Source: a virus. From it: DNA of 64,000 nt. This document shows positions 43,897 through 61,370 of the stretch, piece by piece. The DNA lies in IMG/VR virus record IMGVR_UViG_3300024346_003797, positions 1 to 64,000 of that record, one strand, 5' to 3'. The notes under the pieces were generated by a model that saw only the letters and a list, made by a program, of their open reading frames with translations, did no database searches and was not told the origin of the DNA. Position 1 is the stretch's first letter; every line of letters starts with the position of its first letter. The position numbers were made by a program, and so were the translations under genes.

Positions 43897-44064
43897 ATGA
43901 TAAATAAATATATGAGCAATAATATAGAAGAAAATAAGACTACACCTGTACCGGAATATGGTCCTAAACCTGACGAACATGGTGGGTTTTACTTCTCATC
44001 TCATTTAAAAATAACTGATCCAAATACTAAAGAAGTATTGGTTCAACAAAGAGGCGATAACTAA
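43897..44064 (+). CDS. Small protein (50-55 residues) sharing a motif with the next gene
   Basis: ATG at 43897 directly follows the giant's stop and gives 55 residues; a second ATG at 43912 (MSNNIEENKTT) gives 50. The text GGFYFSSHLKITDPNTKEVL is familiar from small proteins beside baseplate genes of marine T4-like phages. Its LKITDPNTKEVLV resembles LKIYDPNNGEVLV at the N-terminus of the next protein, suggesting the same beta hairpin or binding surface. Stop and next start overlap (TAATG). It is a probable structural adaptor; exact function unknown. Confidence 0.7.
   Translation: MINKYMSNNIEENKTTPVPEYGPKPDEHGGFYFSSHLKITDPNTKEVLVQQRGDN
43899..43906 (+). promoter_or_regulatory. Late-promoter-like GATAAATA at the small gene start
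   Basis: GATAAATA sits inside the first codons of the 55-residue reading and 5 bases before the second ATG. It could drive the following gene at 44064 but would start too late for a normal leader of the small gene itself. Confidence 0.4.
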
Positions 44065-44684: not shown

Positions 44685-44692
44685 GATAAATA
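44685..44692 (+). promoter_or_regulatory. T4-type late promoter motif (GATAAATA) before the fibre gene
   Basis: GATAAATA lies 23 bases before the ATG at 44716 and directly follows the stop of the upstream gene. Seven of eight consensus positions match. Confidence 0.6.
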
Positions 44693-44715
44693 ACAGAATA
44701 TCGGGGTAATTTAAT

Positions 44716-45894
44716 ATGGCATATACGATTGTAAAGAGTGATGGAACAGTACTAACAACCATTGCTGACGGTACTATAAACACAACTAGTACATCATTGG
44801 GTTTACCGGGCAGGAACTATGCTGGGTATGGCCAATCACTTGATACCAACTTTGTTCATGCAATGGAAAACTTTGCAGACTCTGTTCCTCCTTCTAATCC
44901 ATTGCGAGGTCAATTATGGTATAATACTAATGATAGCACCTTGTGTGTTTGTCCAGCAGATGGAACTACAACTGCTAGCTCTTGGATTACACTAGCGCAG
45001 TCAGGTGGTTCAGGTACAACAACATTTGGATCGGTAACTGTTACAGGTAATCTTCAAGCAAACAATATCACTGCAGTAAACGCATTAGTCGGGGACACAA
45101 TCACTGTTCGTCTAGCAACAGTTACTGCAAATGCGTCAATCGCAAATGCAAATGTTACAAATGGTAATATCACCACATTAACTACAGCAAATATTACTTC
45201 TGGTTCGTCAACAACTATCGGCAATATTACAGGTACTTGGACAGTAACAGGTGGTTCAGCCGGTAACAGTTTAGTAGTTGCTAATGGTAATGTTTATACA
45301 ACTGGCATTAAAACAGATAACTATTACTATGCAAATGGTACTCCATTCAACCCAACAGGAACATATGGTAATGCTAATGTAGCATTATTTTTACCAACAT
45401 ATACCGGTAACTTGCAACCATCATTGGTAACAACTTCTGCAATCGCAGGTGGTGGTACGATTTCTGGTATATGGACATTGGCTAGTGGTGCTAGATTAAA
45501 TGCAACATACGCTGACTTAGCAGAACGTTTTGAGGCAGATGCAACATATGATGCAGGTACAGTTGTTGAATTGGGCGGAGATGCAGAAATAACTGCAGTA
45601 GTAAATGAACTAAGCGAAGATGTATTTGGCGTGGTATCTAACACAGCGGCGTATTTAATGAACGCCGGAGCAGGGGATGATTTAACTCATCCACCAGTAG
45701 CTGTTGGTGGTCGTGTACAAGTTAAAGTTACAGGCAAAGTTCGTAAAGGTCAACGTTTAGTAAGTGCTGGAAATGGTATTGCACGTGCAGCCAAAATAGG
45801 TGAAGCAACATCATTCAATGTAATTGGACGTGCTCTAGCAAACAAAACTACTGATGACGTTGGCACCGTAGAAGCATTCGTTTCAATTAAATAA
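44716..45894 (+). CDS. Tail fibre-like protein with probable G2-type C-terminal domain
   Basis: The protein has 392 residues. The N-terminus (MAYTIVKSDGTVLTTIADGT, NYAGYGQSLDTNFVHAMENF, then PLRGQLWYNT) is a conserved virion-attachment domain of marine T4-like fibres. The middle is a Thr/Asn/Ala/Gly repeat shaft (NVTNGNITTLTTANI). The C-terminal third (ADLAERFEADATYDAGTVVE, then EDVFGVVSNTAAYLMN) resembles the peptidase-G2-like C-terminal domain of fibres and spikes that can act as an intramolecular, autoproteolytic chaperone. I did not verify catalytic residues, so cleavage is uncertain. Confidence 0.75.
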   Translation: MAYTIVKSDGTVLTTIADGTINTTSTSLGLPGRNYAGYGQSLDTNFVHAMENFADSVPPSNPLRGQLWYNTNDSTLCVCPADGTTTASSWITLAQSGGSGTTTFGSVTVTGNLQANNITAVNALVGDTITVRLATVTANASIANANVTNGNITTLTTANITSGSSTTIGNITGTWTVTGGSAGNSLVVANGNVYTTGIKTDNYYYANGTPFNPTGTYGNANVALFLPTYTGNLQPSLVTTSAIAGGGTISGIWTLASGARLNATYADLAERFEADATYDAGTVVELGGDAEITAVVNELSEDVFGVVSNTAAYLMNAGAGDDLTHPPVAVGGRVQVKVTGKVRKGQRLVSAGNGIARAAKIGEATSFNVIGRALANKTTDDVGTVEAFVSIK

Positions 45895-45903
45895 GGATAA
45901 AAC

Positions 45904-46869
45904 ATGAGTTACGCACAATATGCAACGATTGAAGCTGGTGATTTTAACACATTGGTAACTGGATTTGCCAATGGAGCAGCCAATACTAGTACTGCCGCAC
46001 TGAACACTGTCTGGTCAACCGGAACACAAAATAGAGGTTATGGTCAAACAGCAATCGTAGCAGAAACTGCAGGTAATACTATTACTGCTACTAAGTGGGC
46101 AGCATTGGTATCAAACACTGCTAATTCAGCCTCACATCAAAGTTCTAGTATTACTAGCGTTACAGCCCCTGCAGTTGGAAATACAATTACATATTTGTCT
46201 GCTATTCCTACAAACTTAACAACTATCTATAATAATAGATTGAATGCAGTATCACAAAGTGCAACCAGTTCTAATGCAGCCGTGTATGCAAGTACATGGG
46301 CTAGTGCAATTACATTTACACATACGATAACATTCGCCAATGGTGATGCCGCACGTTATTTCTTTAATTCAGGCGGACAATTAGCTATTACTGCAACACA
46401 CGCTAACTCAACTTCAGGTATTAACTTGTTAGTGAATAACTTAGCAAGTAACGTAGGAACAGTTGTATTAAGTTCACCTACTACAGGTACTGCTACAATT
46501 GCTAGCACAAGTTATAATGGTGTTACTAAAGTAGGTGGCGGAGGATCAACTCCTACTATATCTACTAATAGTGGATACTATTCTTGGACAACAAGTAATG
46601 CAAACATATTCTATCAAACTGCTAGCACAGGACCTTCTGGATACCTATCAACTAATATCAACATCTTTGTAAAAACAAATGGAACTGTTGGTAGTAACGG
46701 AGATGTAGGTAATGTTATTACAATCTATACAGTTTGGGACGAAATACCAAATGGATTAACAGTTGGAACTGGATCTACTACTACAGTAACTATTCGTCCA
46801 CCCGAAACAACTTATATTGCTAATACTTGGGGCACACCTACAGTAGGTGGCACTGTAACAGGTAGTTAA
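45904..46869 (+). CDS. Virion structural protein, fibre/adhesin-like
   Basis: The 321-residue protein begins MSYAQYATIEAGDFNTLVTG and has STGTQNRGYGQTAI, familiar from structural proteins beside fibres in cyanophages. The rest is Ser/Thr/Asn/Gly-rich beta text with an aromatic FTHTITFANGDAARYFFNSG segment. A Gly-rich loop (VGGGG) is present in the middle, as in adhesin tips. AAGGATAA precedes the ATG. No T4 counterpart recognised. Confidence 0.6.
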   Translation: MSYAQYATIEAGDFNTLVTGFANGAANTSTAALNTVWSTGTQNRGYGQTAIVAETAGNTITATKWAALVSNTANSASHQSSSITSVTAPAVGNTITYLSAIPTNLTTIYNNRLNAVSQSATSSNAAVYASTWASAITFTHTITFANGDAARYFFNSGGQLAITATHANSTSGINLLVNNLASNVGTVVLSSPTTGTATIASTSYNGVTKVGGGGSTPTISTNSGYYSWTTSNANIFYQTASTGPSGYLSTNINIFVKTNGTVGSNGDVGNVITIYTVWDEIPNGLTVGTGSTTTVTIRPPETTYIANTWGTPTVGGTVTGS

Positions 46870-46893
46870 TTTTTAACAACAGCACAGTATCTA

Positions 46894-46901
46894 TCTAAAT
46901 A
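46894..46901 (+). promoter_or_regulatory. Late-promoter-like TCTAAATA before the modification cassette
   Basis: TCTAAATA lies 15 bases before the ATG at 46917, with GGAG just before the start. It matches six of eight consensus positions and would sit at the head of the overlapping glycosyltransferase and radical SAM genes. Confidence 0.4.
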
Positions 46902-46916
46902 CTCGTAGGAGTGTTT

Positions 46917-47222
46917 ATGGATACCAAAACCTTAATTACTGAGGCGAAAGCTCGCTTCAATCACAATAGCGCAAAAGCGCAACTCAAAGACAAATACGAT
47001 GGAAAACTCATTGTTGCAGAACAAGGGGGACTTTGGAAAGCAAGCCCTGAACTTATTTCTACACTAAATGCATTTGATGATAACTTCATCGTACTTATTG
47101 ATAACTTTGACAATCCTGTACAGGTTAACAGAGAACAACTATTAACTGTACTAAAAACTACTTACCAAAAAGTCATGCTTGACTGGTATAAAGAATGGAA
47201 AGAACTAGAGACTAAACGATGA
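46917..47222 (+). CDS. Conserved small protein heading the modification cassette, unknown
   Basis: The ATG at 46917 is preceded by GGAG at good spacing and gives 101 residues (MDTKTLITEAKARFNHNSAK). It is charged, ends in a helical WYKEWKELETKR segment and overlaps the next gene by ATGA. Similar short proteins are found after fibre genes in marine T4-like phages. A fibre chaperone or assembly role is possible but unproven. Confidence 0.7.
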   Translation: MDTKTLITEAKARFNHNSAKAQLKDKYDGKLIVAEQGGLWKASPELISTLNAFDDNFIVLIDNFDNPVQVNREQLLTVLKTTYQKVMLDWYKEWKELETKR

Positions 47223-48022
47223 ACAGAGGAGCAATACTATTTGCATTTAACTCAACAAAGTTTGACTACTATTCAATGGCAGTTGCAACAGCGAAAAGAG
47301 TTAATCATTTTTTAAATATGCCTGTTACAATCGTGACGGACACTAACTCCATATCTGATTCACCGTACAAGTTTGATAAAACAATACTAGTAGAACCCGA
47401 CAAAAGTAATACCAGAGACTGGGGGATGTGGATTAATAAGGGTCGTTATCAGGCATATAACTTATCACCATATTATGAAACTCTATTATTAGACACAGAT
47501 TATATGGTTAACTCAACTAAGACATTGGATATATTTAACTACTATGATGATTTTTGTTGTCATAATAAAACTAGTTATCTAATGCAACCAGGATTACCAC
47601 AAGAAGTACTGAGTGTTTATAGTTTCGAAACACTGTGGGCAACAGTTGTTGCTTTTAAAAAGTCAAATAGAGCTAAACAAATATTTGATTGTTTAGAAAT
47701 GGTTCAAAAGAACTTTAATCACTATGCAGATTTACACGGATTTATTGCTGAAACATATAGAAATGATTACGCACTAACACTTGCTCTTAGAATAGCTAAT
47801 GGACATTCTACACTAAAACAAGATTTTATACCATGGAACTTAGTACATTTAGGACAAAAGAATGTACATATCTATCGCAATAATGATACTGAGTTTAATA
47901 CAGAATATACTATCATGCATGATAACTGGCAACGTGGTAAACTACGTAAAGAATATACCACTATCAAGGATATGGATTTTCATGTAATGAATAAACTTAA
48001 CTTTATGGAGCTAATAGCATGA
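47219..48022 (+). CDS. Glycosyltransferase-like protein (GT-A fold), copy 1
   Basis: The protein has 267 residues. It begins with a Rossmann-like strand (GAILFAFNSTKFDYY), then a nucleotide-sugar type region PVTIVTD and a DxD-like LLLDTDYMV near residue 90, the metal-binding signature of GT-A enzymes. Similar phage proteins are annotated as glycosyltransferases. It overlaps its neighbours at both ends (ATGA) and is distantly similar in layout to the next gene. Donor and acceptor are unknown. Confidence 0.6.
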   Translation: MNRGAILFAFNSTKFDYYSMAVATAKRVNHFLNMPVTIVTDTNSISDSPYKFDKTILVEPDKSNTRDWGMWINKGRYQAYNLSPYYETLLLDTDYMVNSTKTLDIFNYYDDFCCHNKTSYLMQPGLPQEVLSVYSFETLWATVVAFKKSNRAKQIFDCLEMVQKNFNHYADLHGFIAETYRNDYALTLALRIANGHSTLKQDFIPWNLVHLGQKNVHIYRNNDTEFNTEYTIMHDNWQRGKLRKEYTTIKDMDFHVMNKLNFMELIA

Positions 48023-48780
48023 GTAAAGGGTTTGTTATTATGGCACAAGATACTGATAAGGTTAGCTACACTAACTGTGCCAAAGCATTAGAACTAAGCA
48101 TCAAACGTGTCATGCCTAATAGTAATGTAACAATAATTACCAGTGATATGCTACCATATGGTGACCTGGGTGGCTATGCAAATGATTGGCAAGTATATGA
48201 ATGTAGTCCATATGATGAAACAATCAAACTAGAAGCTGATATGTTTTTTACCCGCAATATTGACCATTGGTGGGATATATTAAGTATTAACGATGTGGTT
48301 GTGTCAAATACTATACGTAACTTTAAAGGAGATATATCTGACTGTAGAGTATATCGTAGATTTATAGATGATAATCAATTACCCGACTGTTACAATGCAA
48401 TTACATACTTTAAAAAATCTGAAACAGCTAAACAGTTTTATACTGTAGTTAAAGATGTATTTGAGAACTGGGAAGAATACAAACTTGTACTTAAATGTAA
48501 TCCAAATGAAGAGGTAAGCACAGATTGGGCATATGCATTAGCATGTCATATTATTGGTGTAGAAAAAACAATGCTACCTGACTTTACTGAAATGAGTATG
48601 GTACACATGAAACGTTATGTTAATGGTTTGCCCAGTGAAGACTGGACTAATACATTGGTATATGAGTTATTACCCGATACTATCAGAATAAATTCCTACC
48701 CACAATTATACCCGTTACACTATCATGTGAAATCATTTAGTGATATAATATTAGAAAGCTACAAATGGAACACATATTAA
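48019..48780 (+). CDS. Glycosyltransferase-like protein (GT-A fold), copy 2
   Basis: The protein has 253 residues. It has the same layout as the preceding gene: KGFVIMAQDTDKVSYTNCAK, VTIITSD, then IKLEADMFF near residue 73 replacing LLLDTDYMV, so the first Asp of the DxD is Glu here. A C-terminal LYPLHYHVKSF His-containing segment is present. The two genes probably arose by duplication and divergence. The altered DxD may change metal use or activity. Confidence 0.55.
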   Translation: MSKGFVIMAQDTDKVSYTNCAKALELSIKRVMPNSNVTIITSDMLPYGDLGGYANDWQVYECSPYDETIKLEADMFFTRNIDHWWDILSINDVVVSNTIRNFKGDISDCRVYRRFIDDNQLPDCYNAITYFKKSETAKQFYTVVKDVFENWEEYKLVLKCNPNEEVSTDWAYALACHIIGVEKTMLPDFTEMSMVHMKRYVNGLPSEDWTNTLVYELLPDTIRINSYPQLYPLHYHVKSFSDIILESYKWNTY

Positions 48781-49097
48781 TTTGGGAAGCACCACCTATC
48801 ATCAAACCTGAGTTTAGGTTATATTATGATGATAAAGGTAAGGTGTTGTTTTATACATGTGACAAACCTGAAGGTAAATACATAGTTATTGATGCTAATA
48901 CATTTGCACAAGGACGTCCGGATATTAGAGTAGTTGATGGTAAAATCGCATCAGTTGATTCCGGAGCAGTTGTATCCAAACTAATATTAAATATTGAAGG
49001 TATATCTTGCGCTAGCGAAGATATTAGTATTGTAGTAGATGAAACGTATGATGGTGAAACTAATAAATGGAAATTAATAACATATGAACTTGGATGA
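48765..49097 (+). CDS. Conserved small protein between glycosyltransferase-like genes, unknown
   Basis: This 110-residue protein overlaps the previous gene by 16 bases and the next by 14, good evidence of translation in a compact operon. Text such as FRLYYDDKGKVLFYTCDKPE and YIVIDANTFAQGRPDIRVVD looks like a small beta-rich domain that I have seen next to phage glycosyltransferases. No catalytic motif. Function unknown. Confidence 0.7.
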   Translation: MEHILIWEAPPIIKPEFRLYYDDKGKVLFYTCDKPEGKYIVIDANTFAQGRPDIRVVDGKIASVDSGAVVSKLILNIEGISCASEDISIVVDETYDGETNKWKLITYELG

Positions 49098-50037
49098 TAT
49101 TATTGATGTAGCAGATTTAGATTGTATCTATCTTAGCTATGATGAACCACAAAAAGAAGAATTTTGGCTAAAGATTAAAAACATGGTGCCTTGGGCTAAA
49201 CGTGTTGATAGTGTTAAGGGATCTGATGCGGCACACAAAGCCGCAGGTGAAGCGAGTGATACAGAACGCTTTATATTGATTGACGGCGACAATATGCCAG
49301 AAGAAAGCTTCTTCAACATTCAGTTAGATTTTACTGATAAGGATGAAACCTTTCGTAAAGCACAGTTTCGTTGGAAGGCGGTTAATAGTATCAATGGACT
49401 ACGCTATGGCAATGGCGGTATGAGTTCATGGACAAAAACTTATGTGCGTGAAATGAAAACACATGAGCATCAAAATGAAGGTGATGTTTCACGAATAGCT
49501 GACTTTTGTTTAGACAGCAAAGACAACTTATATTGGGCAATGCATGATTGTTACTCTACTACTTATCCTAATTATACTCCGTTTCAAGCGTGGCGTGCTG
49601 GTTTCCGAGAAGGAGTCAAAATGGTGCTCGACCGAGGAGCGAAACCATCAGTCGACCAATTCAAAGAAACTGTAGCAACACGTAATCTCAACAATCTAAC
49701 GATCTGGCATAACATAGGTCGTGATGTAGAGTACGGCGACTGGGCTATTTATGGCGCACGACTAGGTACATACATGACCATGCTCACCGAGTGGGATCCT
49801 ACTAATGTGCAATGGTTTGATAACTATACAGTACTATGGGAAGAGCATTCACATAGAGATCCTGACCGTGAATCGGCATTACTCGGAGCTTCATTGCAAG
49901 ACAAATTGGGACTACCTATGCATCACTTTGATGGAGGACAAAGCAAGTTCTTCAAACGTCATTATAAAGCAGACTTTAGAAATATAGGTCCGTTAGTAAC
50001 TGAAATGGAAGTTATTCGTAAGATTGAAGGCTGGTAA
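49084..50037 (+). CDS. Phage glycosyltransferase-like protein with DGDN motif
   Basis: The protein has 317 residues. The N-terminal pattern IYLSYDEPQKEEFWLKIKNM, then PWAKRVDSVKGSDAAHKAAG, ends in LIDGDN (about residue 64-69), a DxD-type metal site. NSINGLRYGNGG follows. I recognise this family from large marine phage proteins, where it may be fused to the aromatic repeats also seen at the right end of this window. It is probably a nucleotide-sugar transferase or a binding relative; substrate unknown. It overlaps the gene before it. Confidence 0.6.
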   Translation: MNLDDIIDVADLDCIYLSYDEPQKEEFWLKIKNMVPWAKRVDSVKGSDAAHKAAGEASDTERFILIDGDNMPEESFFNIQLDFTDKDETFRKAQFRWKAVNSINGLRYGNGGMSSWTKTYVREMKTHEHQNEGDVSRIADFCLDSKDNLYWAMHDCYSTTYPNYTPFQAWRAGFREGVKMVLDRGAKPSVDQFKETVATRNLNNLTIWHNIGRDVEYGDWAIYGARLGTYMTMLTEWDPTNVQWFDNYTVLWEEHSHRDPDRESALLGASLQDKLGLPMHHFDGGQSKFFKRHYKADFRNIGPLVTEMEVIRKIEGW

Positions 50038-50038
50038 T

Positions 50039-51466
50039 ATGAGTGAAAATATAAAAGGCGATGAAGTTAGCAAAGTTGATGGCAAGTTTCAAAGCTTATA
50101 TCAAAACTCATCTGAACAAGTACTAAAAGAACTTAACAAAGTAAGCCCAAGCTTTTGTTTAGCTAAGTGGTATAATGTAAGTATTCATATTCCTACAGGT
50201 AGAACACATAGTTGCTATCATCCTCCTACTCATCCTATTCCATTGGAAGAAGTAAAGATTGATGTAAGCGCATTACATAATACCAAATATAAAAAAGAAC
50301 AACGCAAACTAATGTTAGAGGGCAACCGCCCTGATGAATGTAACTTCTGTTGGGAAATAGAAGATAGCGGTAATCAATTAAGCGATAGAGCATACAGAAG
50401 TAAAGATGTATTTGCCCCGGGTATGATTGAGGAAGCAGTTAAGATTGGTCATGACGGTAATCCTAAGCCCAGGTATGTAGAAGTTAACTTCAATCAAGCA
50501 TGTAACTTTAAATGTACTTATTGTAGTCCACATCTATCTACTGCTTGGATGCAAGATATTGAAAAGAATGGAGCATTCATATTAGCAGATAGATGGCATA
50601 ATGACATGACTTGGATGAAGCAAGCCAATATGATTCCAAACAATAGGTCAGACAATCAATATGTTGAAGCATTCTGGGAATGGCTACCCGATATATATCC
50701 CACACTACAAACATTTCGTATGACCGGCGGTGAGCCGTTGATGGATAAAAACACTTTTAAGATGTTTGAGTACGTTAAGGATCACCCAAAGAAAGACTTA
50801 CAATTAAGTTTAACTAGTAACTGTTGCCCTCCTGCAGGTCAGTGGGATAGGTTTATGCAGGGTCTAAAGGATATCACTGATGCAGATGCTGTAGATCATT
50901 TTATGTTATTTTGTAGTTTAGACAGTTGGGGTAAGCAGGCTGAATATATCCGTACTGGTATGGATTTTGAATTACTAGAGAAAAATATTATTGACTTTTT
51001 AATCAATAGTCAAAAGCATAGTTTAACATTTATCGTAACATTCAATGCACTAAGTTATACAGGCTGGGTAGAATATGTTAAACAAATACATAATATGCGT
51101 AAAACATATTGTACTGATAGACAACTGATTTGGTTTGATGTTCCTATGTTATCTAGTCCTGAATGGCTTAACCCTAGATTATTCCCAGAACTTATTACAG
51201 AGCTTGAGAAGTCAGTTAAATATATGAGTGAAAACAAAGAGGCAGATCATAACAGATTTAAAGGCTTCAAAGATTTTGAAATTAATAAAGTTGAAAGACT
51301 TATCGATTGGGTAAAAACCGAAAGCGATTTTAATAGAAGTTTAGCAATGAAAAACTTTTATCTGTACTTCACTGAACATGATAAACGTAGAGGAACAAAC
51401 TTCTTAGAAACCTTCCCCGAATTAACTGAACAATGGAATAAATGTAAGGACGAACATGGACGATAG
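50039..51466 (+). CDS. Radical SAM protein with N-terminal twitch-like domain, copy 1
   Basis: The ATG at 50039 overlaps the preceding stop (TAATATG neighbourhood) and gives 475 residues. The radical SAM cluster motif is CNFKCTYC (Cys155, Cys159, Cys162), followed by MTGGEPLMD. Before it lies a cysteine domain (SFCLAKW, HSCYHPP, ECNFCWEIED), like the N-terminal twitch domain that holds an auxiliary iron-sulfur cluster in N_Twi_rSAM proteins. It is closely similar to the next gene (SALHNTKYKKEQRKLMLEG versus SALHNTKWKKEQRKKMLEG). Such enzymes modify peptides, proteins or sugars by radical chemistry. Substrate unknown. Confidence 0.85.
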   Translation: MSENIKGDEVSKVDGKFQSLYQNSSEQVLKELNKVSPSFCLAKWYNVSIHIPTGRTHSCYHPPTHPIPLEEVKIDVSALHNTKYKKEQRKLMLEGNRPDECNFCWEIEDSGNQLSDRAYRSKDVFAPGMIEEAVKIGHDGNPKPRYVEVNFNQACNFKCTYCSPHLSTAWMQDIEKNGAFILADRWHNDMTWMKQANMIPNNRSDNQYVEAFWEWLPDIYPTLQTFRMTGGEPLMDKNTFKMFEYVKDHPKKDLQLSLTSNCCPPAGQWDRFMQGLKDITDADAVDHFMLFCSLDSWGKQAEYIRTGMDFELLEKNIIDFLINSQKHSLTFIVTFNALSYTGWVEYVKQIHNMRKTYCTDRQLIWFDVPMLSSPEWLNPRLFPELITELEKSVKYMSENKEADHNRFKGFKDFEINKVERLIDWVKTESDFNRSLAMKNFYLYFTEHDKRRGTNFLETFPELTEQWNKCKDEHGR

Positions 51467-52814
51467 AGTTGTATTTGTAAAAAACGTAAGAGATAGATTA
51501 AATGCAGTAAGCCCAAGCTTCTGTGCAATGAAATGGCTACATCAAACATTGTATCTACATACAGGTGATAATCATAGTTGTTATCATCCTAGACCACATC
51601 ATATCCCATTAGATGAAATTGCGGTTGATCCAAGCGCATTACATAACACTAAATGGAAAAAAGAGCAACGTAAAAAGATGCTTGAAGGCGAGCGTCCTGG
51701 TGAATGTTACTATTGCTGGAACATCGAAGACCTAGAAGGAGATCATATCAGTGATAGAATGATACATAGTTCAAGTGATTTTAGCGAACCTCTCATTGAA
51801 AAACTAGGACAAATGCCATGGGATGCACCTGTTAACCCACGCTATTTAGAAGTTAGCTTTGGCAATGCATGTAACTATCGTTGCGGATACTGTAGCCCAC
51901 AAGCTAGTACAATGTGGATGGAAGAAATCAAAAAGCATGGCAACTATGACTTAACATATAACCAGTATGGTATTGACTTTTTAACATCAGGTACGTATTA
52001 TGGTCCTAAAGAAGAAAACCCATATATTGAAGCATTCTGGAAGTGGTGGCCTAGTTTAAGAAATGATTTGCACACACTACGCATTACAGGTGGTGAGCCA
52101 CTAATGAATCCGGGTGCTATGCAGTTCTTTGATTTACTAGAAGATGAGCCTGCACCAAACTTAGAAATCACATTGAATAGTAACTTGGGAGTCACGTTTG
52201 ACAGAGTTGACAGATTAATTGAACGTGTAGGATCATTAACATCACAAAATAAAATACGTAAGTTTAGCTTCTTTACTAGTATTGAAGGCTGGGGAGAACA
52301 AGCTGAATATATGCGTACAGGTATGAAGTGTGACCACTGGGAAAGAAACATGAAAGCAATCATGAAGACCGGTGCAACTATCAATTTGATGTGTACATTT
52401 AATGTATTATGTGTAGCAACATTTGAGAATTTGTTACACAAAGTCATTGAATGGCGCAAAGAGTTTGGTAAGCATAGTGTTGGCCTTGATACTCCTTATT
52501 TGAAAGAACCTCCCCACTGGATGATTAACATATTGACTCCTGATTTTATCCCGCACATGGACAAAACATTGAAGTTTATTCAGGATAATCCAGAACACTT
52601 CCATGCAGTAGAATATGAAAAGTTCAAGCGGGTCACTAACTATATGAAAGAACATGTGATTAGTGAAGACAAGATCCGTGCAGGACGCAGAGATTTCTAT
52701 AGCTTCTTCTCAGAAAATGATAAACGATTGGGTACTGATTTGATTAAAACATTCCCGCAATATGAAGAATTTTACAAACTATGTAAGGATGTTTATGACA
52801 ACTATGATAAATGA
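51456..52814 (+). CDS. Radical SAM protein with N-terminal twitch-like domain, copy 2
   Basis: This 452-residue paralogue of the preceding gene overlaps it by 11 bases. Its cluster motif is CNYRCGYC (Cys139, Cys143, Cys146), followed by ITGGEPLMN. The N-terminal part has SFCAMKW, HSCYHPRPH and ECYYCWNIED. The two proteins align along their length, including the C-terminal FYSFFSENDKRLGTD/FYLYFTEHDKRRGTN segment, so they are a tandem duplication with retained catalytic cysteines. Confidence 0.85.
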   Translation: MDDRVVFVKNVRDRLNAVSPSFCAMKWLHQTLYLHTGDNHSCYHPRPHHIPLDEIAVDPSALHNTKWKKEQRKKMLEGERPGECYYCWNIEDLEGDHISDRMIHSSSDFSEPLIEKLGQMPWDAPVNPRYLEVSFGNACNYRCGYCSPQASTMWMEEIKKHGNYDLTYNQYGIDFLTSGTYYGPKEENPYIEAFWKWWPSLRNDLHTLRITGGEPLMNPGAMQFFDLLEDEPAPNLEITLNSNLGVTFDRVDRLIERVGSLTSQNKIRKFSFFTSIEGWGEQAEYMRTGMKCDHWERNMKAIMKTGATINLMCTFNVLCVATFENLLHKVIEWRKEFGKHSVGLDTPYLKEPPHWMINILTPDFIPHMDKTLKFIQDNPEHFHAVEYEKFKRVTNYMKEHVISEDKIRAGRRDFYSFFSENDKRLGTDLIKTFPQYEEFYKLCKDVYDNYDK

Positions 52815-54027
52815 AACTAACAAACATTCTTGGTGTGTGAATGCATATCACGCAATGAGTGCAAACAATGATGGTAGCACCAAAACATGTTGTATGATTG
52901 GAGAAGAATACAATAGATTATCTAAAACTTCTAATGAATATTATATTGGTGTAAAAAGCATTAAAGAAAACTTTGATTGTGATGCCGCACAAACTATTAG
53001 AGATAATCTCTCAAATGGTATAAGAGATAATGCATGTCGTCTATGTTGGCAGGAAGAAGATGGTGGCAGAAAAAGTAAACGTTTACGTGATAATGATAAG
53101 TATATCCACGCCATCACGTATGATAATCAAAAACCATTCACAGGTCTTGCTAAAGTAGAATTAAACTTAGGTAACAATTGCAACATTAAGTGCAGAACAT
53201 GTCACCCCACTATCAGTTCTACTTGGATGAAAGAAGCATTTGACTTGGATCATGCACCACAAAACACTACCTATAAAGAATTTAGTATCGGCATGAAAAA
53301 ATACCATCAACATTACGATGATGAAAGTAGCTTTTGGCCTGACTTAACAGAGAACTTGGAAACAATCAAGCAGTTTGATTTTTACGGTGGTGAACCATTC
53401 TTAAGCAAAAAGATGTGGGAAATACTACGTATATGCGTTGAGCGTGGTTATGCTAAAGATATTGAATTGCATTATAATACGAACGGTACAGTATGGCCCA
53501 AAGATGTTGAACTATGGAAGCACTTTCGTTCAGTAAACATTAGCTTTAGTATAGATGGCGTTGGGGAACGGTTTGAATATATGCGATATCCTGCAAACTG
53601 GGAAGAAGTAAAATTAAATATGCAAAAAGCGATTGATTTTAATAATACTCATAACAACTTATATTTAAGTTGGTGTATGACATTGAGTAGTTTAAACATA
53701 TATTACTTGCCTGAACTACTAGATGAATATTATAATAACTGGACTGGTATGGGATTCTACTTAAATCTTGTACATAATCCAAATCATTTCAATATAAGTA
53801 AAATGTCCCCTGAAGCAAAAGAAGCTGTAATTGCACAGTTAAATAATATTCCCAAAGAATATGAAAACGCATGGCATCAGCTTCCTGGTATTATTGGGTT
53901 CATGACCGGCGGTGAATATGAGCCTGCTGTTTGGGAACACATGCTGAAAACTATTGATAAGCATGATAACTATAGAGAACAAGATTTCTCTAAAACATTT
54001 AGCGAATTTGCAAAGGCGATAAGATGA
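52795..54027 (+). CDS. Radical SAM protein with N-terminal twitch domain, copy 3
   Basis: The ATG at 52795 follows AAGGA by five bases and gives 410 residues; 52804 is an alternative. The twitch-type N-terminus is classic: HSWCVNAYHAMSANNDGS, KTCCMIG and CRLCWQEEDGGRKSKR. The radical SAM motif is CNIKCRTC (Cys129, Cys133, Cys136), then FYGGEPFL. It is more distant from copies 1 and 2. It overlaps the preceding gene by 20 bases and the following by ATGA. Confidence 0.85.
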   Translation: MTTMINETNKHSWCVNAYHAMSANNDGSTKTCCMIGEEYNRLSKTSNEYYIGVKSIKENFDCDAAQTIRDNLSNGIRDNACRLCWQEEDGGRKSKRLRDNDKYIHAITYDNQKPFTGLAKVELNLGNNCNIKCRTCHPTISSTWMKEAFDLDHAPQNTTYKEFSIGMKKYHQHYDDESSFWPDLTENLETIKQFDFYGGEPFLSKKMWEILRICVERGYAKDIELHYNTNGTVWPKDVELWKHFRSVNISFSIDGVGERFEYMRYPANWEEVKLNMQKAIDFNNTHNNLYLSWCMTLSSLNIYYLPELLDEYYNNWTGMGFYLNLVHNPNHFNISKMSPEAKEAVIAQLNNIPKEYENAWHQLPGIIGFMTGGEYEPAVWEHMLKTIDKHDNYREQDFSKTFSEFAKAIR

Positions 54028-55319
54028 GCGAACAATTCTGGAAATCTAATAACTTAATGCAGATGCACATTGAGTTAACTAACTTATGTAATGCAGCCTG
54101 TCCTATGTGTGTTAGATTTTATAATAATAGTACGCTTACTCGTCCGGATCTAGAGTTTGGTCAAATTACTATTGATAAATTTAAAAAATACTTCCCACCT
54201 GAAATCATACGTAAATGTAATCTTATCTTATTCTGCGGAGTACACGGAGATCCGTGTATTGCTAAAGATATGTATGAGATATGTGAATATATTGCTGAGT
54301 GTTCAACAGGCACCGCAGTACGTGTTAATACCAATGGCGGGATGCGTAAGAGTGAATGGTGGAGTAAATTAGGTAAACTATTTGCAAAGCATAAACACGG
54401 ATTAGTAGATGAATACTGGGAAATAACATTCAGTATTGATGGATTAGAAGATACAAATCATTTGTATCGTAGAAATGTAGAATGGTCTGCATTGATGGAA
54501 AACGTAAAGGCTTATATTAATGCCGGTGGCGGAGCAGCTTGGGATTATTTAATATTTAAACATAATGAACATCAAATATTAGAAGCAAAACAATTAAGTG
54601 AAACTATTGGATTTAGAGAGTTTATACCTAAAAAAGCCTTAGGTGTTGATTCGTACAGTGCAAATCAACTAACCATCATGCCTGCATTGAATAAAGAAGG
54701 TGAGTTAGATTATATCATTGAGGCACCAGTCAACCCAAAAAATAGAAATATGTTTAATCCCAATGGTACTATGCCATTGACATATTGGTCCTTTAAAGTA
54801 GATGAATATCGTAAACTTAAAGATGATAAAGAAAACACAACAAGAAAATATAACGAAACTGCATCAAGGATTTACGTAGATGTTATTAATAATGAGAGCT
54901 TTGATGACCAAGACTCTTGTAGTATCTCATGTAAGTCTAAAACACCTAAAGGTGGCACAGAGATATTTGTAGATAACTTTGGACGAGTAATGCCTTGTTG
55001 TTATATAGGTACACATTTGAATGGTAAATATAACGATGTTGCATCTATGCAGTTGTTTAATCATATGAATCAATATGGATGGGATAACTTTAACTTAGAT
55101 TTACATACACTAGAAGAAATTCTTAATGGAGGTCATTTAGATAGAGTGTTTGCAGATTCATGGAATAAAGACTCTGTAAAGAACGGTAAGTTAGCATACT
55201 GTGCTAATACATGTGGAAAAAAATCATCAATAGATAAAATCTTTTCCCATGAGTTAAATGACAAAGCAACAGCTATGGAGCAGTATAGAATAAACAATAG
55301 TGAATGCAAGTTCGATTAA
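54024..55319 (+). CDS. Radical SAM protein with C-terminal SPASM-like domain
   Basis: The protein has 431 residues. The cluster motif CNAACPMC (Cys22, Cys26, Cys29) is close to the N-terminus, as in ordinary SPASM enzymes, and HGDPCIA lies where the GGEP loop would be. The C-terminal half has cysteines in SCSISCKSKTP, VMPCCYIG and YCANTCGKK, the SPASM pattern for auxiliary clusters. It thus differs from its four neighbours in domain order. A role in peptide or protein modification fits the family; substrate unknown. Confidence 0.85.
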   Translation: MSEQFWKSNNLMQMHIELTNLCNAACPMCVRFYNNSTLTRPDLEFGQITIDKFKKYFPPEIIRKCNLILFCGVHGDPCIAKDMYEICEYIAECSTGTAVRVNTNGGMRKSEWWSKLGKLFAKHKHGLVDEYWEITFSIDGLEDTNHLYRRNVEWSALMENVKAYINAGGGAAWDYLIFKHNEHQILEAKQLSETIGFREFIPKKALGVDSYSANQLTIMPALNKEGELDYIIEAPVNPKNRNMFNPNGTMPLTYWSFKVDEYRKLKDDKENTTRKYNETASRIYVDVINNESFDDQDSCSISCKSKTPKGGTEIFVDNFGRVMPCCYIGTHLNGKYNDVASMQLFNHMNQYGWDNFNLDLHTLEEILNGGHLDRVFADSWNKDSVKNGKLAYCANTCGKKSSIDKIFSHELNDKATAMEQYRINNSECKFD

Positions 55320-55333
55320 TATAGGATATTATA

Positions 55334-56554
55334 ATGAATGAAAAAACTTTTTGCAGTTTACCCTTTACTGGGGTATTTTTAGGTAGTGATGGTGGTGTAA
55401 GACCTTGTTGTTCATTACGGGGAGAACTAGGTAATATTAATGAAAATTCGCTTGACGAAATTATTAACGGGGAAATAGCAACATCTATTCGGACATCCAT
55501 TGTTAACAACGAATGGCATACTATGTGTAGTCAATGTCAAGAGTTAGAAAGTAGAGGAGCTAGGACAGAACGAGTAGGTACATTACATTTATATGATGAG
55601 TTGAATACTCTTACAGAAAAAGACTTTAAGCTAACAAAGCTAGATTTACGTTGGAGCAATACTTGTAACTTAACTTGTAATTATTGTTACGAGTATTTTA
55701 GTTCAAAATGGGCTGAAATTAAAGGAATCAAAGTTAATGCAAATAAAGATATAGCAGAGGAAAAGGTCTTTTCTTTCATTGAAGAAAACATGAAAAAAAA
55801 TCCGGATGTTAAGTACAATGTTAACTTGTTGGGAGGAGAGCCATTATTACAGAAGCCTAACTCTAAACTCCTAGATACAATAAGTAGTAGATCCGATATA
55901 TACATATTGACCAATTTAACCGTCCCTTTAGAAACAAATAAAATAGCATCTAAACTATTAGAGGGTGATAATGTCGCATGGGGTATAAGTTTTGAAACAA
56001 TAGGTAAGCGTTTTGAACATGTTAGATATGGTGGAGATTGGGCTCAACTTGTAAAAAACCTACGATATTTGCGTGATAGTAAAGTTAGATCCATTGATTC
56101 CCATCCTTTGTATTGTGTATATAGTGCATTTAATTTAGTAGAATACATGGAGTTCATAGCAGAAGAAGGATATTTTAACAAACAATATTGGCAGGTATTG
56201 CAGAACACTGCTGGATTAGATGTGTATCAACTATCATACCCAATGAAAGTAAAGGCAATGAAAGAGTTAGAGATATGCTTTGATAGATTTGATAAACATT
56301 TTGACCTATCATTATTGAAATCGGTTCATACAGGACTAGAAGCTTCAATGGATATACAATATTATAATAGTGAAGCGGCATTTACTTGGCTATCAGATTT
56401 AGATAAATCTATACCCGGACAAAAACAAGCATTCATCGATTTATGGCCTGAAGTATATAGTGATATGCAACGCACCCGTACTTGGGAACTGAACAGTTCC
56501 GGTAAATATTTAGCGGACTCTAACAACCGCCCCACTTATAAACCAGACAACTGA
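55334..56554 (+). CDS. Radical SAM protein with N-terminal twitch domain, copy 4
   Basis: The protein has 406 residues. The N-terminus reads TFCSLPFTGVFLGSDGGVRP-CCS and ends the twitch domain with MCSQCQELESRGARTERV. The radical SAM motif is CNLTCNYC (Cys111, Cys115, Cys118) followed by NLLGGEPLLQ. A short gap with AGGATA precedes the ATG. It is the last of five radical SAM genes in a row, directly followed by the EKTFKAI-type pair. Confidence 0.85.
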   Translation: MNEKTFCSLPFTGVFLGSDGGVRPCCSLRGELGNINENSLDEIINGEIATSIRTSIVNNEWHTMCSQCQELESRGARTERVGTLHLYDELNTLTEKDFKLTKLDLRWSNTCNLTCNYCYEYFSSKWAEIKGIKVNANKDIAEEKVFSFIEENMKKNPDVKYNVNLLGGEPLLQKPNSKLLDTISSRSDIYILTNLTVPLETNKIASKLLEGDNVAWGISFETIGKRFEHVRYGGDWAQLVKNLRYLRDSKVRSIDSHPLYCVYSAFNLVEYMEFIAEEGYFNKQYWQVLQNTAGLDVYQLSYPMKVKAMKELEICFDRFDKHFDLSLLKSVHTGLEASMDIQYYNSEAAFTWLSDLDKSIPGQKQAFIDLWPEVYSDMQRTRTWELNSSGKYLADSNNRPTYKPDN

Positions 56555-56555
56555 C

Positions 56556-57797
56556 ATGGCAATATTAAACAGAAATAGATTTCCAATGACATTTACATGG
56601 GGAGGATGTACCTCCTTAGATAAAACTTATATTAATTGGATTGAGAATGGAAAAGATCATAGAATCTTTGGATATAAAGATTATAACGATACTGATTACT
56701 GGTATATTGAGATTATGCACGGGGACGTATTTTATTCATTCCCATTAGAAACACTTATCCCCGACGATGTATTGTATAATATACGACAAGGTAAAGTTGT
56801 TCTAATACTAAGCAACTTTTCTGAATCGTATCATAGCATCGTAGAAGATATATACATCCATACTGTTATTAACGGTAAGATTCCTCCGGAACAAATACTA
56901 TTATATACTAACAGTCCGGATATCATACAAGAAATAAACTTTATAAGCAAACAGTTTAGTCAGAATCCCATTAAGGCACATTTGTTATTTGAGTTTGAAA
57001 TGGGTGCGTCCAATACTATAGCATATTCTGATGACAAGTCAGAAGAAAGTAGATGTTACACTAGTAAAACATTAGAACTTGCTGACTATCCTAAAAAATA
57101 TTTAAGTTACAATGGTATGCGAAGACCACAGCGTGTAAGTATAGTTGCTTTGTTAGCATCCATGGATCTATTAAAGCACGGCTATGTAAGTTATAATTCA
57201 TATGTACGATCGGATGCAGACAACATTGATGCAAAAAGAAACTATGATGAAATGTTATTATGGCATATAGAAAATCCTAGATTTATTGATATCTTGCAAA
57301 ATAATAAGGATATATTGTTAAGCTTAAACAGTTTATACTTAGATACTGAACCGGGTATCACTAGTGGGAAGGCAGGATATCACCAAATCACTAAACAGTT
57401 TTATGAAGAAACTTATTTTAGTGTTGTTACTGAAACGCTTTGTATGAAGAAGTTTAGTAATGACGGTAAAACAGGAATGGGTAGAATATTAAGTGAAAAG
57501 ACCTTTAAGGCTATATTAAATCATCATCCTTTCTTGTTAGTGGCAGTTCCCAGAAGCTTACAGTTTTTAAAGAGCATGGGATATAAAACCTTTCACCCAT
57601 ATATAAACGAAGAATATGATAATGAAACTGACGATTCTACCCGTTTACTAATGATAGCTGATGAAACTAAACGTTTATGTGAGCTTTCTTCGGAACAACT
57701 GCAGGAGTTTTTATTGGCTACTAAAGAAATAGTCAACTACAATTTTCAAGTTTTAAAATCTAAAAAAGGACCGTGGTTGATACCATTGATTAACTAA
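56556..57797 (+). CDS. Glycosyltransferase-like protein with EKTFKAI C-terminus, copy 1
   Basis: The protein has 413 residues. The C-terminal part (from about residue 310) reads LSEKTFKAILNHHPFLLVAV and FLKSMGYKTFHPYINEEYD, resembling the donor-binding end of fucosyltransferase-like or other GT-B enzymes (E-K-x-x-x-A...P). Similar proteins are common in marine phages and usually called putative glycosyltransferases. The N-terminal 250 residues are not recognised. It starts one base after the last radical SAM stop and its paralogue follows immediately. Confidence 0.55.
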   Translation: MAILNRNRFPMTFTWGGCTSLDKTYINWIENGKDHRIFGYKDYNDTDYWYIEIMHGDVFYSFPLETLIPDDVLYNIRQGKVVLILSNFSESYHSIVEDIYIHTVINGKIPPEQILLYTNSPDIIQEINFISKQFSQNPIKAHLLFEFEMGASNTIAYSDDKSEESRCYTSKTLELADYPKKYLSYNGMRRPQRVSIVALLASMDLLKHGYVSYNSYVRSDADNIDAKRNYDEMLLWHIENPRFIDILQNNKDILLSLNSLYLDTEPGITSGKAGYHQITKQFYEETYFSVVTETLCMKKFSNDGKTGMGRILSEKTFKAILNHHPFLLVAVPRSLQFLKSMGYKTFHPYINEEYDNETDDSTRLLMIADETKRLCELSSEQLQEFLLATKEIVNYNFQVLKSKKGPWLIPLIN

Positions 57798-57798
57798 G

Positions 57799-58920
57799 AT
57801 GAGTGACACAAAATACACTGTATATTGGAAAAAAGATACTCGAAATTATTTATATATTAATAAGCCAAAATTATATGAAGAGGCTAATAGAGAACCATAC
57901 AGTGCTTATATTATGTACTATATGGGCACCCCGTTTGAAGAATATGATACACAAGTATTAGACCATTTGCGTAAAGATCCAACTAGTATTATGATTATGA
58001 TACATGACTGGTCTCCTTGCGGATCTCCTCCTACTAGCAATTTGTATTTGGAAAAGATTGAAGCTATTGTTAAGTTTACTAATTTATTACCTGAACAATA
58101 TTATCTGATAACAATGGACACTATAGAAGCGGAAAGCATTAAACATGCATTAGTAGAAAGAGGTATACACATTAACTTTATAGGTAGAAACTCGTTACTA
58201 ATAGATGAGACTATTGTATATGATAAACCCTTAAAGGCACCGGAAAAACTATTTAGTATATTCTGCCGAGCATCTAGAGAATGGAGATTTCACTTCTTTT
58301 GTGATATGATTAAGTATGGGTTGTTAGACAAAAGTATTTATAGTTATATGAAAGCGTCCCCTTACCCGGAAGACCCACACCCTACAGAAATATCAGAAAT
58401 AAAAAAGATGATACCTTTAAAATATCGGCTCTTACCTAAAATTAGAAATGAAATAAATACATGGGTTGATAATATGCCATATACTTTAGTAGAAAACATT
58501 TATGATTATTATTCTCCAATTCTCTTTGATGCAATAAGCAATTCACATATACATATTGTTTTAGAGACAATGGTGATAGGACAAATACATCATGTTACTG
58601 AAAAGACCTGGAAAGCTATATCGGTAAAGAAACCATTTATAATATATGGTGTTTTGGGTAGTTTACAGTGGTTGCACACACGAGGCTACAAAACTTTTCA
58701 CCCATATATAAATGAGGACTATGATTTAGAACAAGATCCAATCAGACGCAAAGACATGATTATACGTGAAATGACAAGGATTTCTAACTTGGCAGATGAT
58801 GAGTTAGCACAATTAATAGAAAACTGTACTCCCACAATAGAGCATAATCATAAACTATTTCTTGAATCAAGAAACTTTAAGTGGCCAGAAGAATTTGCCA
58901 AGCTTGGTATCTTTAAATAA
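57799..58920 (+). CDS. Glycosyltransferase-like protein with EKTWKAI C-terminus, copy 2
   Basis: This 373-residue paralogue of the preceding protein shares VTEKTWKAISVKKPFIIYGV and WLHTRGYKTFHPYINEDYDL near residues 265-310. The N-terminal half has diverged more. It ends exactly against the convergent DUF6165-like gene (stop at 58920, opposite stop at 58921), so no room remains for a normal terminator. Confidence 0.55.
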   Translation: MSDTKYTVYWKKDTRNYLYINKPKLYEEANREPYSAYIMYYMGTPFEEYDTQVLDHLRKDPTSIMIMIHDWSPCGSPPTSNLYLEKIEAIVKFTNLLPEQYYLITMDTIEAESIKHALVERGIHINFIGRNSLLIDETIVYDKPLKAPEKLFSIFCRASREWRFHFFCDMIKYGLLDKSIYSYMKASPYPEDPHPTEISEIKKMIPLKYRLLPKIRNEINTWVDNMPYTLVENIYDYYSPILFDAISNSHIHIVLETMVIGQIHHVTEKTWKAISVKKPFIIYGVLGSLQWLHTRGYKTFHPYINEDYDLEQDPIRRKDMIIREMTRISNLADDELAQLIENCTPTIEHNHKLFLESRNFKWPEEFAKLGIFK

Positions 58921-59271
58921 TCAACCGTATTTCTTAACTTCTCTTACCGGGTCGTTAAGAACTTCAGCCATTCTGTTCTTTAAAATATATCTCTCATTCA
59001 ATATATTACGAACATGGATAGCTCTACGCCCAACTTCCTCTAAACTATACTTGTGCTCTACAGTGTACTTTTTAAAATCATCTTCTAATTCCCAGACTCT
59101 GGCATGAACATCATATAGTTTATCTAAGTCTTCCCTAATCAGATTAAGATCCAAATCTTTTAGCTGATTGGAGTAAAAATCTAATTCTTCTTTGTTATCA
59201 TTTAATTTTGCAAACTTAAGCTTGGCGATACAATATCTATCTACTAATTCAATAACTGGGAATTTATACAT
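58921..59271 (-). CDS. DUF6165-like small protein of sugar-modification clusters
   Basis: The protein has 116 residues. The pattern FPVIELVDRYCIAKLKFAKL, then VHARVWELEDDFKK and AIHVRNILNERYILKNRM is that of the DUF6165-like proteins often coded beside sugar-nucleotide and glycosyltransferase genes in bacteria and phages. It is probably all helical. It overlaps the C-methyltransferase gene by 8 bases. Function unknown. Confidence 0.65.
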   Translation of the reverse strand: MYKFPVIELVDRYCIAKLKFAKLNDNKEELDFYSNQLKDLDLNLIREDLDKLYDVHARVWELEDDFKKYTVEHKYSLEEVGRRAIHVRNILNERYILKNRMAEVLNDPVREVKKYG

Positions 59272-60472
59272 TTTTTATTTCTACCTTTGGAAAATACTTT
59301 AAAAACAAGTCTTGCGGCTCGTTTCTTACTACCTTAATACGATTACTAATCTCAGTAAAGAAGTTCCAAGCTAATGGCATAAACAATATTTTATCTTCTT
59401 TACTATATTCTTTTAACACATCTATAGATTTTATAGGTGAATTGTGTCCCGGACTGTATAGATTATGTTTGAGTGGACTATCATCTATAATCAAATCTAA
59501 TGGTTCTTTGATATAGTTTAACAATGTGTTACCTTTAGCGGCTGCACCGTAACCCACTACCTTATAACCCTGATCCTTATATGTATTGATTACAGATTTT
59601 AATTCAAACATATTAGATTGAACTGTTTGCTCCCAATCTTTATATGTTTTTAAATCTAACAATTTGGATTCATTCTTAATAATGTTCTCTACGTTAAATG
59701 TACGTTTTTGTATTTTACTTAATACGAATATATAGCTATTCCCGTGTATCGGAGTTTTAATTACATCTATTAGATTTAAATTTGCTCTTTTAGCTAACTC
59801 ATTCATACTATTAGCATTAAAGAAATTGATATGTTCGTGGTATATAGTATCAAACTCATTGTTTAAAACCATATCTGCTTGACTAGTTTGAATGAATAAC
59901 ATAGTATGGTCACTCATTAATTCTTTAACAGTTTGCAAAAATTCTATTGGATTTGGATTATGAGCAAACACATTCTGTGCAGTAATGGCATCAAAATTAT
60001 AATGAATTTTCTCTATAATGTTTGGACCAAAGTAGTCACAAATAACATCATGTTTTGCTGAACTAGTTGGATGAATATTTTCTGCTGGATCAATGCCAAA
60101 TGTATTTAAACTATAGGGTTTAAAACAATCTAGTTGCGTACCATCATTACATCCAATATCTAATACGTTACCAGTCTGCCGGTCCATGTTTTCTACTACA
60201 TAACCTGCAAACCATTTACTATATTCTTTTAATGTTTTGCTGGTACCAGCAACGTACAAGTAATTGGAATAGATTATTTTAGGATCAACTGTATGAGTTA
60301 ATTGCAAATGACAGCAATCTTTACACAGATTAACTCCTAATGGATATGTATCTTGTTTGTATGGTTTGTCTTTTAAATTATTAGCTAAAGGTTGATTACC
60401 TAAATCTAATGAAGGTATTAAATGTGTGCCACCACAGGCTAAGCACGTTGTATTTTCTATTAGGTTATTCAT
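59264..60472 (-). CDS. NDP-sugar C-methyltransferase
   Basis: This 402-residue protein has the three-part layout of sugar C-methyltransferases (TylC3/NovU type). A zinc domain has Cys10, Cys13, Cys50 and Cys53 (CLACGG, CKDCCHLQ). The SAM-binding motif VLDIGCNDGT is at residues 103-112. The C-terminal Rossmann-like part contains VVGYGAAAKGNTLLNYI and IDDSPLKHNLYSPG. HEHINFF matches the active-site region of the family. It would methylate a carbon of a keto sugar nucleotide. It overlaps both neighbours by 8 bases and is likely co-transcribed with the epimerase. Confidence 0.92.
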   Translation of the reverse strand: MNNLIENTTCLACGGTHLIPSLDLGNQPLANNLKDKPYKQDTYPLGVNLCKDCCHLQLTHTVDPKIIYSNYLYVAGTSKTLKEYSKWFAGYVVENMDRQTGNVLDIGCNDGTQLDCFKPYSLNTFGIDPAENIHPTSSAKHDVICDYFGPNIIEKIHYNFDAITAQNVFAHNPNPIEFLQTVKELMSDHTMLFIQTSQADMVLNNEFDTIYHEHINFFNANSMNELAKRANLNLIDVIKTPIHGNSYIFVLSKIQKRTFNVENIIKNESKLLDLKTYKDWEQTVQSNMFELKSVINTYKDQGYKVVGYGAAAKGNTLLNYIKEPLDLIIDDSPLKHNLYSPGHNSPIKSIDVLKEYSKEDKILFMPLAWNFFTEISNRIKVVRNEPQDLFLKYFPKVEIKNV

Positions 60473-61370
60473 ATGTTTTATATTGATTTCTGTTGCTAAA
60501 GGTCACTGTATCAATTTTGTTTACTAATTCAGTTACAATAGAGGTAGTAGTGTCATTGAACATAAAGTTATAATCTGTTTTAAACTTGTTTACGTCCATT
60601 AAAAAGTTGTAAGCATTTGGAACATCAGTAGTACGTTGTACATTAGAATGTAATACCTGACTGACATTAGATGATATGTTTTCAACGGTATCACAAAAAC
60701 TAGCTAAATTGTAAATACCAAATTTGGGTGTCTCAATAATAGTTTTTATCGCCCTAGTTAAGTCTGTAATTCCCAATATTGGTCGTTGAATATCTACATT
60801 GTTTATAGTTAAACTGTTAGTTTCAACCGATCTTTTAGTCATTGAATTAATCATTAACTCCTCTCTGACATTTGGACTCCACCCGTTAACGGTACCAAAA
60901 CGTAAACCTACAATATTATATCCTTCAGCTATAAACTTCTGTGCGTTTAAATCTAACGAGTACTTGGTTAAGTCGTAGTTATTAATCGGTTTGAATGTAA
61001 TGTGAACATCTTCTGCTAGTGGAACATCAGTTATTCCATATACGCTTCCACTACTAGCATAAATCAATAATTGTGATTTATCTAGTTTGTTTACTAAGGT
61101 GTTGAAGTTATTTACATTGTTGTTCCAACTAGAGTTAACATCACCAATACACATTTTAACCGAGCTATGGCCGGCTAATAATACAATGGTATCAAACTTA
61201 CTGAGATATTCTTTAGTAAGATTATTGTAATCGATAGTATAGCTATATTTAAAATCTTTACCATACCAGCAAAGATCCACACTTTCAATTGAGTAAGCTG
61301 AGTTTAATTCGTATATAAGTCTGGAACCAATATAACCATTCCCACCTATAATTAGAACAGATTTAGTCAT
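60465..61370 (-). CDS. NAD-dependent sugar epimerase/dehydratase (extended SDR)
   Basis: The protein has 301 residues. The nucleotide-binding motif GGNGYIG (9-15), SSGSVYG (106-112, catalytic Ser/Thr region) and YDLTK (Tyr132, Lys136) identify an extended short-chain dehydrogenase such as a UDP- or TDP-sugar epimerase. The substrate is not evident. With the C-methyltransferase it could make or tailor a branched sugar. It is first in the three-gene minus-strand operon. Confidence 0.9.
   Translation of the reverse strand: MTKSVLIIGGNGYIGSRLIYELNSAYSIESVDLCWYGKDFKYSYTIDYNNLTKEYLSKFDTIVLLAGHSSVKMCIGDVNSSWNNNVNNFNTLVNKLDKSQLLIYASSGSVYGITDVPLAEDVHITFKPINNYDLTKYSLDLNAQKFIAEGYNIVGLRFGTVNGWSPNVREELMINSMTKRSVETNSLTINNVDIQRPILGITDLTRAIKTIIETPKFGIYNLASFCDTVENISSNVSQVLHSNVQRTTDVPNAYNFLMDVNKFKTDYNFMFNDTTTSIVTELVNKIDTVTFSNRNQYKTYE

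Follow-up and report, generated by a model that had tools for sequence, protein, structure and literature searches.

Paired and modular radical SAM genes behind the fibre genes of an uncultivated aquatic phage

What does a phage do with five consecutive radical S-adenosylmethionine (SAM) genes? Such a run, R1 to R5, occupies positions 50024-56554 on the + strand of a 64,000-nucleotide stretch of DNA (hereafter the window), which covers positions 1 to 64,000 of the 77,090 bp IMG/VR record IMGVR_UViG_3300024346_003797 from an uncultivated aquatic phage. The five genes are intact and their cluster-binding cysteines are conserved, they recur in other phages as fixed pairs within a modular cassette, and two of them have kin in Bdellovibrionota; their likely target is a sugar or peptide at a surface.

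Five intact radical SAM genes

R1 (50024-51466, from a TTG start, with an ATG at 50039), R2 (51456-52814), R3 (52762-54027), R4 (54024-55319) and R5 (55334-56554) are separated by 14 nt or overlap by 4-53 nt. The original prediction, made from the letters of the window alone, had described five consecutive genes behind fibre genes, overlapping or nearly touching, all with a CxxxCxxC motif and four with an N-terminal twitch-type cysteine domain, and each of these points was borne out. R1, R2, R3 and R5 score 312, 310, 303 and 212 bits over the full length of NF033640, the NCBIfam model of the 'twitch domain-containing radical SAM protein' (N_Twi_rSAM, curated cut-off 170 bits), and are members of that family. 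With 52 bits R4 falls outside it; this protein, which matches phrog_21308, has the radical SAM core and no N-terminal twitch. The C-terminal SPASM-like domain ascribed to R4 stood in part: five C-terminal cysteines (C303, C325, C326, C393 and C397) are invariant across 24 sequences, but no match to the Pfam SPASM domain (PF13186) was obtained. That domain was detected in R5, at residues 7-69 (E=2e-11).

The CxxxCxxC motif is present in every relative checked of R1 (129/129), R2 (141/141), R4 (135/135) and R5 (49/49) and in 229 of the 231 relatives of R3. In R2, four cysteines of the added domain that are putative cluster ligands (C23, C42, C84 and C87) are likewise invariant across 56 sequences. 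Membership in two further families was rejected, viperin at 20-31 bits against the NF038283 cut-off of 180 and QueE at scores far under its cut-off. NF033640 itself is a subfamily model that carries no named reaction, within which R1 and R2 stand apart as a distinct 'SCxHP' subfamily.

Fixed pairs and a variable slot

The arrangement of the modules was followed in 34 dereplicated loci and, because it recurs there, the order of R1-R5 is not due to chance. In 32 of 33 loci R2 has R1 as its upstream neighbour, and among 28 direct pairs the two open reading frames (ORFs) overlap in 25. Both R3 and R4 are present in 24/29 loci, just one of them in a single locus and neither in four; R5 is present in 10. 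Gene order around the modules varies, and four loci (L018, L057, L072 and L095) have unrelated flanks and lack GT1 and GT2, the first two of three glycosyltransferase-like genes (GT1-GT3) upstream of R1 in the window. Fixed pairs in unrelated surroundings indicate that the cassette moves as a module. R2 is its best conserved gene, with a median identity to the window of 80% across loci, followed by R1 with 67%; the corresponding values are 26-44% for GT1, GT2, GT3 and two fibre genes. Given the varying order, the unrelated flanks and this excess of R1/R2 identity, the cassette appears to be exchanged between phages and to be under strong constraint.

A variable slot separates GT3 from the gene for a repeat protein of 2212 aa. 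Cassettes in this slot that lack twitch radical SAM genes encode GDP-mannose dehydratase, epimerase, DegT, RmlD and UDP-glucose dehydrogenase domains, as well as NTP-transferase, C-methyltransferase and carbamoyltransferase domains. The commonest companions of radical SAM cassettes, other radical SAM genes aside, are SGNH-like proteins (25/36 loci); DUF6492, carbamoyltransferase, epimerase, UDP-glucose dehydrogenase and B12 radical SAM proteins also occur. The original prediction had asked for co-occurrence with a constant substrate gene. None was found across the phage loci, and a candidate partner came to light only for bacterial relatives of R2 (see below).

In the window, the run lies downstream of baseplate genes and of three fibre/virion-type ORFs (44064-46869, +), the second of which (44716-45894) shows a weak, below cut-off match (E=2e-4) to Peptidase_G2, an autoproteolytic chaperone domain. 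Then follow, all on the + strand, GT1 (47219-48022), GT2 (48019-48780), a small protein with no family match (48765-49097), whose place is taken by a protein of about 205 aa in most loci, and GT3 (49084-50037), which adjoins R1. A joint profile of GT1 and GT2 could be aligned with glycogenin along about 105 positions (E=5e-7), and both are GT8/glycogenin-like glycosyltransferases; neither protein has a Pfam match at 0.01. By its structure model (predicted local distance difference test score, pLDDT, 85), GT3 is a GT-A-fold protein: a fold search matched it at Z 8-10 with GT-A glycosyltransferases and also with nucleotidyltransferases, and D67 and D69 are invariant. A GT3 or GT3-like gene lies within five genes upstream of R2 in 23/29 loci. 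Downstream of R5, X1 and X2 (56556-58920, +) recur next to R5 in the sister locus L097 and match nothing in Pfam, NCBIfam or PHROGs, so that the claim of glycosyltransferase-like genes on both sides of the run is only half supported. The proposal of a dedicated pathway fared better, inasmuch as the genes are conserved as a unit, all point the same way and go together with genes for fibres and glycosyltransferases. Since all genes from 44064 to 58920 are on the + strand and overlap or are separated by gaps of at most 42 nt, everything from the fibre genes through GT1-GT3 and R1-R5 to X1-X2 may be transcribed as one unit; scans for promoters and terminators gave no signal above shuffles.

On the opposite strand lie genes for a sugar C-methyltransferase-type protein (59264-60472; Methyltransf_13/_23/_14, PF08484 E=2e-24) and an NAD-dependent epimerase/dehydratase (60465-61370; PF01370 E=5e-20). 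The repeat protein starts at 61423 (+) and runs past the end of the window to position 68061 of the record (L004:3423-10061). It consists of dozens of repeats of about 66 aa (FDFSWRPDPTSPPYIYVFGNQW...), each resembling a segment of a GT-A domain, and of a C-terminal GT3-like part. Among uncultivated phages it is widespread, with lengths of about 200-3000 aa, contig ends having truncated some of the copies. As a substrate it was rejected: many loci have it with no twitch radical SAM gene nearby, and it is therefore only a neighbour of the slot.

The baseplate wedge protein has its nearest relatives, at about 33% identity, in large myoviruses, among them Erwinia phage pEa_SNUABM_47 and Pectobacterium phage CBB, from which we infer that the record probably represents part of a larger genome, T4-like and of the jumbo type. 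A single ORF of 5904 aa fills positions 26182-43896, its N-terminal part matching the virion structural protein family phrog_10938. Beyond the window, an ORF at record positions 74058-74939 (L004:16058-16939) resembles a Gram-negative general porin with a signal peptide and has no PHROGs match; it could hint at a betaproteobacterial host.

How common such genes are depends on where one looks. Pattern scans of IMG/VR returned 219 stretches with R2 relatives and 48 with R3 relatives, and twitch-type genes, 1-13 per record, were present in each of ten large records from uncultivated viruses. Among 50,697 records of cultured phages, by contrast, R2 was matched in two and R3 in 22, nearly all Vibrio phages, and neither GT3 nor the repeat protein was matched at all. 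The rarity in phages claimed originally is thus true of cultured phages and not of this uncultivated group. Cultured Vibrio phage K566 (OZ196521.1, 161548-168284; L227:7549-14285) has four twitch-type radical SAM genes, two of them above the NF033640 cut-off, and no close R1/R2 orthologue (best match 21% identity). Its cluster is partly annotated as hypothetical, with PagP annotated close by. Two marine phage contigs (L125:1309-20383 and L126:119-18753) pack about 12 radical SAM genes into 20 kb, together with an NDP-sugar dehydrogenase.

The label 'undescribed system' went too far. NF033640 is a known family, and both a T4-like phage with many radical SAM genes and fibre-side cassettes have been published. 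Marine phage TARA_ERS488813_N000010 has 12 radical SAM genes in a T4-like genome, interpreted as serving iron-sulphur metabolism (PMC5332604); its likeness to our case lies in their number, while modules, slot and cellular kin are not described in the available part of that paper. Pelagimyophages carry optional radical SAM cassettes beside tail fibres within a hypervariable region, as well as common GT8 glycosyltransferases argued to modify the host O-chain (PMC7029224). They share these traits with the window but infect SAR11, that article reports its freshwater genomes to be without radical SAM genes, and the R1-R2 pair is not described in the available part of it. What is new is the fixed pairs, the modular arrangement and the cellular context; the enzyme family itself was known.

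Relatives in Bdellovibrionota

NF033640 proteins were found in 30 of 114 sampled Bdellovibrionota genomes, with up to 16 matches per genome, as compared to 3 of 249 Pseudomonadota genomes. Relatives of R2 with 25-45% identity, some of them in tandem pairs, occur in 25/109 Bdellovibrionota genomes; none was seen in the 249 Pseudomonadota genomes, in a search that had no positive control. One scan with R3 returned no cellular relative, the cellular kin having come from other searches. In a tree, a single clade (100/100) united phage R1 and R2 with 22 Bdellovibrionota relatives of R2, most with the signature SCxxPxxH. That R1/R2 arose in viruses alone, as a first tree had suggested, was withdrawn once bacterial relatives had been added. 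R1 and R2 are part of a subfamily common to phages and Bdellovibrionota.

Six Bdellovibrionota genomes have a gene for a PqqD-type recognition protein only 23-203 bp away from an R2 relative of this subfamily. Ten genomes moreover encode a protein of about 150 aa in which a conserved 30-residue stretch (YxFGGIxEFNLEEIExEVLNxSVYLDVFAG) is fused to Peptidase_S74. All ten have an R2 relative (p=8e-8 for 10/10 within the 25/109), and the full-length peptide protein picks out the same ten genomes as do the closest PqqD matches located near that protein or near R2, apart from weaker PqqD matches elsewhere. In nine of the ten genomes having both PqqD and the peptide protein, the R2 relative is within 6 kb of PqqD. 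Sets of PqqD and peptide-S74 protein near an N-twitch radical SAM gene are found at L240:15965-16755, L242:8914-9756, L243:8100-8874 and L257:5739-6539, the last being one ORF that fuses the two. Some Bdellovibrionota R2 relatives also adjoin an R5-like radical SAM gene, and genes beside some of them are read, from their sequence, as ABC-2 exporter genes.

The Peptidase_S74 domain is a tail-fibre chaperone. Fibres with this domain were rejected as the shared substrate: of ten S74-rich Bdellovibrionota genomes only one has R2, and in 29 viral records including that of the window the domain occurs in Vibrio phage K566 alone. Bdellovibrio uses chimeric fibres on its prey, according to the part of PMC10769870 available.

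Surface sugar or surface peptide

We tentatively favour, at a chance that we would put slightly short of even, the reading in which R1-R5 supply the radical chemistry of an exchangeable cassette for surface decoration and thereby modify a sugar on the virion or the host envelope. Each module would oxidise, epimerise, decarboxylate or cross-link a sugar, be it a nucleotide-sugar or an attached glycan, via 5'-deoxyadenosyl-radical chemistry, with a role of the auxiliary [4Fe-4S] cluster in electron transfer. GT1-GT3 would put the product onto the fibre or host envelope, optional SGNH proteins, carbamoyl- and methyltransferases would complete it, and phages that mix modules would come to differ in surface chemistry. 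This reading is ranked first because of the slot contents and the neighbouring genes: cassettes of the same slot without twitch radical SAM genes hold nucleotide-sugar genes, glycosyltransferases lie upstream, the companions of radical SAM cassettes point the same way, and a C-methyltransferase and an epimerase lie inside the window. It is further supported by the fold of R2. The R2 model (pLDDT 94.6) has a radical SAM core whose nearest solved folds are SkfB (Z 13.5), BlsE (Z 13.4) and DesII (Z 12.6), and two of these three, BlsE and DesII, we take to act on sugars. These two resemble R2 in the core at 13-19% identity, its N-terminal twitch being outside the alignments. Several observations weigh against sugar chemistry. 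The top fold match, SkfB, is a peptide maturase tied with BlsE; some cellular R2 relatives adjoin PqqD and a conserved peptide, and those closest to the phage have no clear sugar operon adjoining; the SGNH-like companion is absent from the window's own record; and X1 and X2 remain without a family.

Modification of a polypeptide by R1/R2, RiPP-like (ribosomally synthesised and post-translationally modified peptide) or on a fibre protein, with a thioether, cyclophane, epimer or oxidised residue as product and that protein also serving the glycosyltransferases as substrate, is the less probable possibility, ranked a close second because PqqD occurs in bacteria. The proximity of the Bdellovibrionota subfamily to PqqD, the shared occurrence of R2 relatives and peptide-S74 proteins and the PqqD fusion all argue for it, as do SkfB, SuiB and anSME among the nearest folds, which share with R2 a radical SAM core plus auxiliary cluster domain but differ in that the twitch domain of R2 is N-terminal. 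SuiB, anSME and viperin were also among the fold matches, anSME tied or nearly so with the top, and with SkfB, BlsE, DesII and anSME so close the fold cannot decide between peptide and sugar. The phage side speaks otherwise: no PqqD above cut-off was found in the 29 viral records, fragments in which a fused or divergent RiPP recognition element (RRE) would be missed, which in turn supports sugar chemistry, and no homologue of the bacterial 30-residue peptide was found in viral material. The combination by which RiPP maturation, as by SkfB or SuiB, would be recognised, PqqD or an RRE with a precursor in the same genome, was accordingly not seen in these fragments. Nor does PqqD directly adjoin those bacterial R2 relatives that are most similar to the phage proteins (L233 and L237; L232 has only a weak PqqD-like ORF about 8 kb off), and S74-rich genomes mostly lack R2. 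A bolder version, which we consider doubtful, makes the SCxHP subfamily maturases of a new class, for surface peptides or fibres, that would act with PqqD on a Peptidase_S74-folded, perhaps released, 30-residue peptide in Bdellovibrionota, while jumbo-type phages would turn the R1-R2 pair on fibres or surface proteins of their own.

Auxiliary metabolic cargo that alters host metabolism and is unconnected to virion or envelope would suit an optional and mobile cassette and the placing of phage radical SAM genes in iron-sulphur metabolism in the part of PMC5332604 available, but at most loci the cassette sits behind fibre genes within a glycosyltransferase run, and we regard this as improbable. 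Still less credible is modification of nucleotides, tRNA or phage DNA bases in the manner of QueE, or a viperin-like production of antiviral nucleotide analogues: the cassette holds no replication or RNA gene, and the models of viperin, MoaA and QueE, whose weak matches suggest it, score about 18-40 bits against cut-offs of at least 180. Such matches come from the shared radical SAM core; viperin is also among the fold matches.

Radical SAM genes recur in uncultivated aquatic phages, and the literature found names no substrate for them. Fixed pairs, mobility, slot exchange with nucleotide-sugar genes and kinship with Bdellovibrionota turn what was an annotation into a testable question, namely whether these phages apply radical chemistry to sugars of the virion or envelope or carry a peptide maturase of their own.

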